A stretch of DNA of 64,000 nt. Origin: Streptomyces rapamycinicus NRRL 5491. Its GTDB lineage: Bacteria; Actinomycetota; Actinomycetes; Streptomycetales; Streptomycetaceae. The position numbers were made by a program, and so were the translations under genes. A model generated the notes under the pieces. It made no database searches. It worked only from the letters and a program-made list of their open reading frames with translations, and was not told where the DNA came from. Positions 26,901 through 29,900 of this stretch are shown here, one piece after another; positions within the stretch are counted from its first letter, which is position 1; every line of letters starts with the position of its first letter. The DNA is taken from positions 11,036,001 through 11,100,000 of the forward strand of contig NZ_CP085193.1 of NCBI RefSeq assembly GCF_024298965.1, given 5' to 3'.

Positions 26901-29900
26901 CGGTGGTGGTGGGTCATTCGCAGGGTGAGATCGCGGCGGCGTGTGTGGCCGGGGGTCTTTCGCTGGAGGACGGTGCCCGTGTGGTGGCCTTGCGGAGCAG
27001 GGCGCTGCTCGCCCTGTCGGGCCGGGGCGGGATGGTGTCCGTACCGGTGCCCGCCGATCGGCTCCGTGACCGTCCGGGGTTGTCGGTGGCGGCGGTGAAT
27101 GGTCCGGCGTCGACGGTGGTGTCCGGGGCGGTTGAGGTGCTGGACGGGGTGCTGGCGGAGTTCCCGGAGGCCAAACGCATTCCGGTGGATTACGCCTCGC
27201 ACTCCCCGCAGGTGGCCGAGATCCAGCGGGAGCTGGCGGACGTGCTGGCGCCGGTCCGGCCGCGCGGTGGGCACGTCGCGTTCCACTCGACGGTGACCGG
27301 ACGGCTCACCGACACCTCCGAACTCGACGCCGACTACTGGTACCGCAACCTCCGGCACACGGTGGAATTCCAGAGCACCGTCGAAGCCCTGATGAACCAG
27401 GGCCACACCGTGTTCGTCGAGGTGAGCCCGCACCCCGTGCTGACCATCGGCATCCAGGACACCGTCGAGACCCCAGACACCCCCGACACCACGGACGCCA
27501 CCGGCGCCCCCGATGCCGCTGACACCGCTGACGTCTCCGGCACCGCCGACGTCACCGGCGCCGACATCGTCGTCACCGGAACGCTGCGCCGCGACGACGG
27601 TGGCCCCGCCCGCTTCCTCACCGTACTCGGCGACCTCCACACCCGGGGCGTGGACGTGGACTGGCGCCCGGTCTTCACCGGGGCCCGGACGGTGGACCTT
27701 CCCACCTACGCCTTCCAACGGGAACGCTTCTGGCTGAAGCCCGCGCGGGCGGTGACCCAGGCGTCCGGGCTGGGCCTCGGCGATATCGAGCACCCCCTGC
27801 TGGGCGCGGTACTGCCCCTGCCCGGGGACGAGGGCGGCGTGCTGACCGGACTGCTCTCCCTGGACGGACAGCCCTGGCTGGCCCACCACATGGTGCGGGA
27901 CACGGTGGTCTTCCCCGGCACGGGATTCGTCGAACTCGCCCTGCGGGCCGGTCAGCACTTCGGCCACTCGGTGGTGGAGGAGCTGACCCTGCAGACCCCG
28001 CTGGTGGTGCCGGACCAGGGCGGGGTCCAGGTACAGGTGGCCGTCTCGGCGGTGGACGAACGGGGCCGGAGGCCGGTCACGGTGCACTCGTGCCGCGCCG
28101 GGGAGTGGGTGCTGCACGCCTCGGGCACCCTCGGCATCCTCGGCACCCCCGGCGCCACCGGAGCCCCCGGCGCCACCGGAGCCCCCGGCGCCACCGGCGC
28201 CCCCGGCGCCCCCGGCGCCCCCGGCGCCCCCGGCGCCCCCGGCGCCCCCGACGTCACCGGGCCGCGCCCCGCCGAGGTGGCCCGGCCCCTGCAGGTCTGG
28301 CCGCCCGAGGGCGCGCGGAGCCTCGATGTCTCGGGGATGTACGAGGCGATGGCGGAGCGCGGTTACGGGTACGGTCCCACCTTCCAAGGGCTGCGCGCCG
28401 CGTGGACACGGGACGACGAGATCTACGCCGAAGTGGCTCTGGAGCCGGAGGCACAGGACGTGGCGGCGCGGTGCGGTGCGCATCCGGCCCTGCTCGACGC
28501 CGCGTTGCACGGAGTGGGGCTCGGCCGCTTCCTCACCGACCCCGGCCAGGCGTATCTGCCGTTCTCCTGGAGCGGGGTGGCGCTGCACGCGGTCGGCGCC
28601 TCCGCCATCCGCGTGGTGCTCTCCCCGGCCGGTCCGGACGCGGTGTCGCTGGAGGTGACGGACCCGACGGGAGCGCCTGTGCTGTCGGTGGCGTCGCTCT
28701 CGTTGCGTCCGCTGACCAGCGAGCGGATCGCGGACACCCGAGGGGTGGACCAGGATTCGCTGTACCGCGTGGACTGGGTCGAGATTCCGCTGCCGACTGC
28801 CCCGGCAGGTTCGGCCCCGGCCGAGTACGACGCGTCACCGACGTTCGACGCCCCGGTCGAGTACGACACTCTCGCCCTCGACGCCCTCGACGCCCTCGAC
28901 GCTCCCGACGTTCCCGACGTTCCCGTGCCCGACGCGGTGGTGCTGCCGTGTGAGTCGGCCGGTGACGCGGTGTCCACCGTCGTGTGCCGGGCGCTGGCGG
29001 CGGTACGGCGATGGCTCGCCGACGAGCGCTGTGCCCGGTCGCGGCTGGCCGTGCTGACGCGCGGCGCGATGGCGACCGCTCCCGGCGAGAGCGTCGAAGA
29101 CCTCGGCGCGGCGGCGGTCTGGGGCCTGCTCCGCAGCGCACAGGCCGAGCATCCTGACCGCTTCGTCCTCGTCGACCACGACGGCCACCAGGATTCCCGT
29201 ACGGTGCTTGCCGCCGCGTTGGCCGCCGCGGCGGACGGTGGCCATGCGCATCTCGCGCTGCGCCGTGGCCGTGTCCTGACGCCTCAGCTCGCTCCGCTCA
29301 CCCCGTCCGCGACCGCCCTGTCCACCACCACACCGCCCGCCACCACACCGCCCGCCGCCACTCCGCCCGCCGCCACTCCGCCCGCCGCCACCCCGGCCCC
29401 GGAGGCCGGGGCACCCTGGCGAATGGACGTCACCAGTCAGGGCACGCTGGAGAATCTGGCCGCCGTCCCCTGCCCGGAGGCCGCCGGTGTCCTCGGCGCC
29501 GGACAGGTGCGGGTGGCGATGCACGCGGCCGGGGTGAACTTCCGGGACGTCGTCGTCGCCCTCGGCATGATCCCCGGTCAGGACGTCATCGGCAGCGAGG
29601 GTGCCGGAGTGGTGCTCGACATCGGCCCCGATGTGTCCGGCCTGGCGCCCGGTGACCGAGTGATGGGTCTGTTCTCCGGGGCGTTCGGTCCCGTGGCGGT
29701 GACCGATCACCGGCTGTTGGCGCGGCTGCCGGAAGGCTGGTCGTTCGCCGACGCCGCGGCCACGCCGGTGGTGTTCCTGACCGCCATGTACGGGCTGATG
29801 GATCTGGCCGGTCTGCGCCCTGGCGAGTCGGTGCTGGTGCACTCGGCCGCGGGCGGGGTCGGCATGGCCGCGACACAGGTGGCCCGCTGGCTCGACGCCG

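Follow-up and report, generated by a model that had tools for sequence, protein, structure and literature searches.

The 64,000-nucleotide stretch of Streptomyces rapamycinicus NRRL 5491 analyzed here (contig NZ_CP085193.1, positions 11,036,001 to 11,100,000; referred to as the window) carries on its plus strand the gene of a modular type I polyketide synthase (PKS; 2828..36511) of 11,227 amino acids (aa) with seven ketosynthase (KS) and seven acyltransferase (AT) motifs. Pfam matches and a motif scan assign the domain order KS-AT-DH-ER-KR to module 6 (DH, dehydratase; ER, enoylreductase; KR, ketoreductase), and it is the dehydratase of this module (DH6) that harbours a collagen-like tandem array (28142..28249, plus strand). 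The first hot-dog (PKS_DH_N, PF21089; 27791..28090, 100.8 bits) and the second (PS-DH, PF14765; 28283..28723, 94.6 bits) both score far above the cut-off, i.e., both halves of the double hot-dog are present. DH6 also contains the His and the Asp motif of a type I PKS dehydratase, presumably the catalytic ones: HHMVRDTVVFPG (27884-27919), including the His (27887..27889) of HxxxGxxxxP, which here reads HMVRDTVVFP with Asp in place of Gly, and HPALLDAALH with the Asp at 28496..28498. The first-pass annotation had located the run inside a catalytic PKS domain, between the hot-dog halves and with catalytic motifs on both sides. The Pfam matches before and after the array and the two flanking motifs agree with this placement, which holds for the DH domain as a whole but not for the core of its fold, the site being the inter-hot-dog loop. 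The part of this loop that varies in length (28133..28297) comprises 55 aa; the corresponding range among the six relatives is 17 to 33 aa.

Frame reading verified the 12 unbroken in-frame Gly-X-Y triplets reported earlier; they lie in the frame of the open reading frame (ORF) 2828-36511, are free of stop codons and follow the order GTP GAT GAP GAT GAP GAT GAP GAP GAP GAP GAP GAP. Since the array is preceded by GTL GIL, the run with Gly at every third position extends to 14 triplets from 28124 if both are counted. At the DNA level, the tandem-repeat finder reports a period of 9 base pairs (bp) with 12.2 copies, 89 % matches and a score of 178. The array (108 bp) is composed of 18-bp units GGCGCCACCGGAGCCCCC, followed by six perfect 9-bp units GGCGCCCCC encoding Gly-Ala-Pro (28196..28249, plus strand); GGC GCC ACC GGA GCC CCC is found exactly twice and a third time with one base changed before the 9-bp derivative takes over, GGA marking two of the units. 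The collagen-like appearance of the product results from units which are multiples of nine bases starting with a Gly codon. A chance origin of the run was rejected, since shuffling the residues of the ORF (200 trials) or those of the linker itself (5000 trials) yielded at most 6 and 7 consecutive triplets, respectively. Folding prediction gives a far more stable structure for the minus strand of the array than for its shuffles (-51.7 vs -41.5 kcal/mol, z -4.3), whereas the advantage of the plus strand is slight (z -1.6). A comparison with the phage collection gave no match.

Among 392 genomes (host included, one genome per species compared), five from the genus of the host (G096, G150, G165, G055 and G384) proved to contain closely similar DH domains. 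A further search added those of Streptomyces rugosispiralis and S. niphimycinicus, the latter having the sequence of G150; no second strain of a species came up. These six relatives are treated as orthologues on account of their identity (81 to 92 % in the search of the 392 genomes); a protein search yielded none, with no match above 49 % identity among the matches listed. The Gly-X-Y run is absent from all six. The variable part of the loop measures 17 aa in G165, G055 and G384, 22 aa in S. rugosispiralis, 28 aa in G096, 33 aa in S. niphimycinicus and 55 aa in the window, while the lengths of the two hot-dogs (122 and 139 aa) are identical in all seven orthologues. In S. rugosispiralis, the 18-bp unit GGC GCC ACC GGA GCC CCC occurs once at the same place. 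The loop of G096 contains a separate 18-bp duplication (GGA GCC CTC GAC GTC ACC twice), and that of S. niphimycinicus an imperfect repeat of the 18-bp type as judged by eye. Thus, the alignment suggested in the first-pass annotation confirmed length variation among orthologues (17-55 aa), but the same insert was recovered in 0/6 relatives. Synonymous divergence of the window from its two nearest relatives is only 0.04 to 0.07 per site, arguing for recent growth of the array. The changes private to the window (2 synonymous and 3 non-synonymous) are too few to judge selection.

The host genome, a single contig of 12.47 Mb, contains 118 PS-DH matches, for 112 of which the loop was measured between the final strand of hot-dog 1 (HASGTL in the window) and the YGP motif in hot-dog 2 (17 from anchors read by eye; L154 and L162 to L166 omitted for want of anchors). 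These loops have a median length of 38 aa (middle half 37 to 40 aa), and the window loop with 79 aa is the longest, followed by loops of 65, 55 and 51 aa. In all four loops of at least 50 aa, the tandem score was reached by 0/500 codon shuffles, with periods of 18, 18, 12 and 12. Six of the 112 loops, all among the eight longest, have a tandem score that no more than 5 of 500 codon shuffles attain; besides the four just named, these are loops of 46 and 45 aa, likewise unmatched by any shuffle. A survey of 120 other PKS proteins (120 of 450 matches listed; 463 candidates scored) provided 425 loops with a median of 37 aa, counting DHs caught by the anchor pattern. Values of 113 and 94 aa, the highest obtained, were judged by eye to be mis-anchored; the next two are 69 aa. 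No Gly-X-Y run of at least 8 triplets was present in these 425 loops of the 120 proteins listed, and one was found outside the loops (in protein P0074). Among 36 loci from the search that had yielded S. rugosispiralis and S. niphimycinicus, 27 were checked and 26 measured, the loops amounting to 36 to 46 aa in non-orthologues and to 46 and 57 aa in the two orthologues included. The host census and the survey together indicate that repeats commonly grow in the inter-hot-dog loop and rarely give Gly-X-Y.

The array matches the Pfam Collagen family (PF01391) with 28.7 and 30.8 bits for two query lengths and with 34.5 bits in the genome search (cut-off 27.2 bits). Unbroken Gly-X-Y triplets scoring above this cut-off are shared with collagen-like proteins; DH6 differs from them in having only 12 to 14 triplets of low complexity (GAP/GAT) within the loop of an enzyme. 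A dedicated triple-helix domain of common descent, as in a collagenous architecture, is not what is found here, but a short stretch in a PKS loop. Collagen by descent was rejected as an origin, since the six orthologues lack the run and one of them has the 18-bp unit once. The likeness to variable-number tandem repeat expansions in disordered linkers is closer: in-frame head-to-tail units, length variation between species and predicted disorder are common to both, and what sets the DH6 array apart is that its 9/18-bp unit begins with Gly, hence the collagen look.

The array is therefore best understood as a recent in-frame repeat expansion by slippage or unequal recombination in a permissive, disordered loop, with near-neutral effect on the enzyme (probability roughly 85 %). 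Growth would have started from a GC-rich stretch of 18 bp in the flexible inter-hot-dog loop, encoding Gly-Ala-Thr-Gly-Ala-Pro; its tandem duplication would have been followed by sixfold repetition of a 9-bp sub-unit (Gly-Ala-Pro). The growth itself may have proceeded by replication slippage or unequal recombination, and the hairpin predicted on the minus strand of the array would fit hairpin-assisted slippage. The slippage origin already considered in the first-pass annotation thus gains support from the head-to-tail DNA units, from the single unit in S. rugosispiralis within a range of 17 to 55 aa, and from repeat growth of this loop in other DHs.

In the predicted (monomeric) structure of DH6, obtained as had been proposed earlier, the loop is disordered between two normal hot-dogs: model residues 123-135, 137-148 and 150-166 have predicted local distance difference test (pLDDT) values below 50, while 217 of the 323 residues reach 90, and the fold resembles that of solved DHs. 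From its place in the fold, the loop would correspond to β7-α2, the inter-hot-dog loop also found in the type I PKS dehydratases FluA DH1 (6obv), RifDH10 (4ln9) and EryDH4 (3el6); the 79 aa of DH6 contrast with the median values of 38 aa in the host and 37 aa in the 120 other PKS proteins. According to PMC6697708, the β7-α2 loop is among the DH regions with the greatest variability and flexibility, either showing high B-factors or lacking density in published structures, and this loop may influence the substrate cavity. The latter, together with the Collagen score above cut-off and the longest loop among the 112 measured in the genome, could be taken to indicate a stiff polyproline-II- or collagen-like spacer maintained by selection, which sets the distance or the movement of the hot-dogs. 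This is considered improbable, and the rigid spacer affecting DH geometry which the first-pass annotation had offered as an alternative finds no support in a model with a disordered loop and normal hot-dogs. Under the favoured scenario of neutral expansion, the loop is predicted to bulge as a disordered strand, with the hot-dogs folding normally.

The extreme loop length, in combination with the change of HxxxG to HxxxD, could also point to an insert that harms DH6, so that the module drifts towards loss of dehydration. However, the His and Asp motifs are intact, the hot-dog lengths are conserved relative to the six relatives, and pairwise ratios of non-synonymous to synonymous changes (dN/dS) between the window and these relatives range from 0.16 to 0.39, albeit from small counts. 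The HxxxD variant is common to DH6 of the window, G096 and S. rugosispiralis; 21 of the host's 116 DHs have Asp at this Gly, as does the solved rifamycin DH (4ln9). It is thus no sign of activity loss, and inactivity of the DH owing to HxxxD was rejected. Damage to DH6 is accordingly regarded as unlikely. Least probable of all is an assembly or sequencing artefact, for although GC-rich repeats are error-prone, the genome is one 12.47-Mb contig with a stated completeness of 100, the array spans just 108 bp in frame with two GGA-marked units, and relatives carry repeats at the same site. Returning to expansion within a tolerant loop, DH6 most likely still dehydrates, and the insert would thus be near-neutral. 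Separately, module 7 contains a weak, partial PS-DH match (34586-34915, 43.2 bits) without the YGP segment, which probably represents a decayed DH.

The same ORF displays 14 length-variable sites in comparison to four relatives (alignment without S. rugosispiralis and G150), several of which are repeats as judged by eye; segment lengths include up to 6 flanking residues, and two blocks were excluded from this count on account of G096 and G384, whose longest frames fall short and have ends that cannot be aligned. Variable linkers lie at approximate window positions 26387, 27485, 28826, 29321, 32774 and 35585. The segment near residue 7853 (26387) ranges from 13 to 62 aa and is longer in G165, G055 and G384 than in the window. 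A repeat-rich variable site precedes the DH of module 6 (27458..27571, plus strand; 9/18-bp repeats, near residue 8219, 6 to 33 aa), a repeat-rich linker follows it (28873..28925, plus strand; 9-bp repeats, segment 21 to 39 aa), and a further variable site is located downstream (29328..29395, plus strand; 15-bp repeats, near residue 8831, 6 to 31 aa). The longest PKS frames from stop to stop comprise 5,924 aa in G096 (L205-L206) and 9,205 aa in G384 (L211-L212), as compared to 11,170 aa in G165 and 11,156 aa in G055; the short ones perhaps reflect a frameshift, either a genuine one in the gene or one introduced by assembly.

A second PKS of the host (open frame of 4,348 aa) contains 13 uninterrupted Gly-X-Y triplets and GAT/GAA repeats within an enoylreductase (L018/L167; G000:C1:1380549-1380710, minus strand). 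From NSL to SQA, this ER comprises 272 aa vs 102 to 104 aa in the ten other ERs caught by the pattern. Like the run in DH6, this insert is an in-frame Gly-X-Y sequence inside a catalytic PKS domain; it differs in its GAT/GAA units, in its larger size (about 170 aa extra) and in its less expected place. This suggests that Gly-X-Y expansion is a wider feature of the PKS genes of the host and not confined to DH6. The exact array (GGCGCCCCC)4, with this codon usage, occurs in three of the 392 genomes, host included. In one of the two others it reads Gly-Ala-Pro and precedes a DoxX domain; in the second, no Pfam match was obtained in any frame tested and no PKS domain was seen. Occurrence outside PKS domains accords with a mutational origin of such arrays, followed by their survival at sites where order in the protein is immaterial. 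Elsewhere in the window, a 141-bp tandem repeat (2.6 copies, 52145-52513) is situated in a minus-strand GH127 gene, at its ricin-type lectin end.

None of the titles and abstract openings seen in the open-licence literature searched reports a PKS with a collagen-like insert; marginolactone PKSs are described in PMC5082578. One may further speculate that hairpin-forming 9/12/18-bp repeats act as fast length switches in surface loops of PKS domains (DH inter-hot-dog, ER) of these large-genome Streptomyces, with loop length tuning substrate processing and repeat number adjusting product mixtures, but this is a long shot.

The array is eye-catching, and its effect on the enzyme is probably little. 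Collagen-like sequence can come from little more than the expansion of 9 bp in a GC-rich genome, and collagen matches in Streptomyces enzymes should be viewed with caution, as they need not mean function. The DH inter-hot-dog loop seems to accommodate some 40 additional residues, and such a tolerant loop is of use for tagging, splitting and engineering PKS domains.
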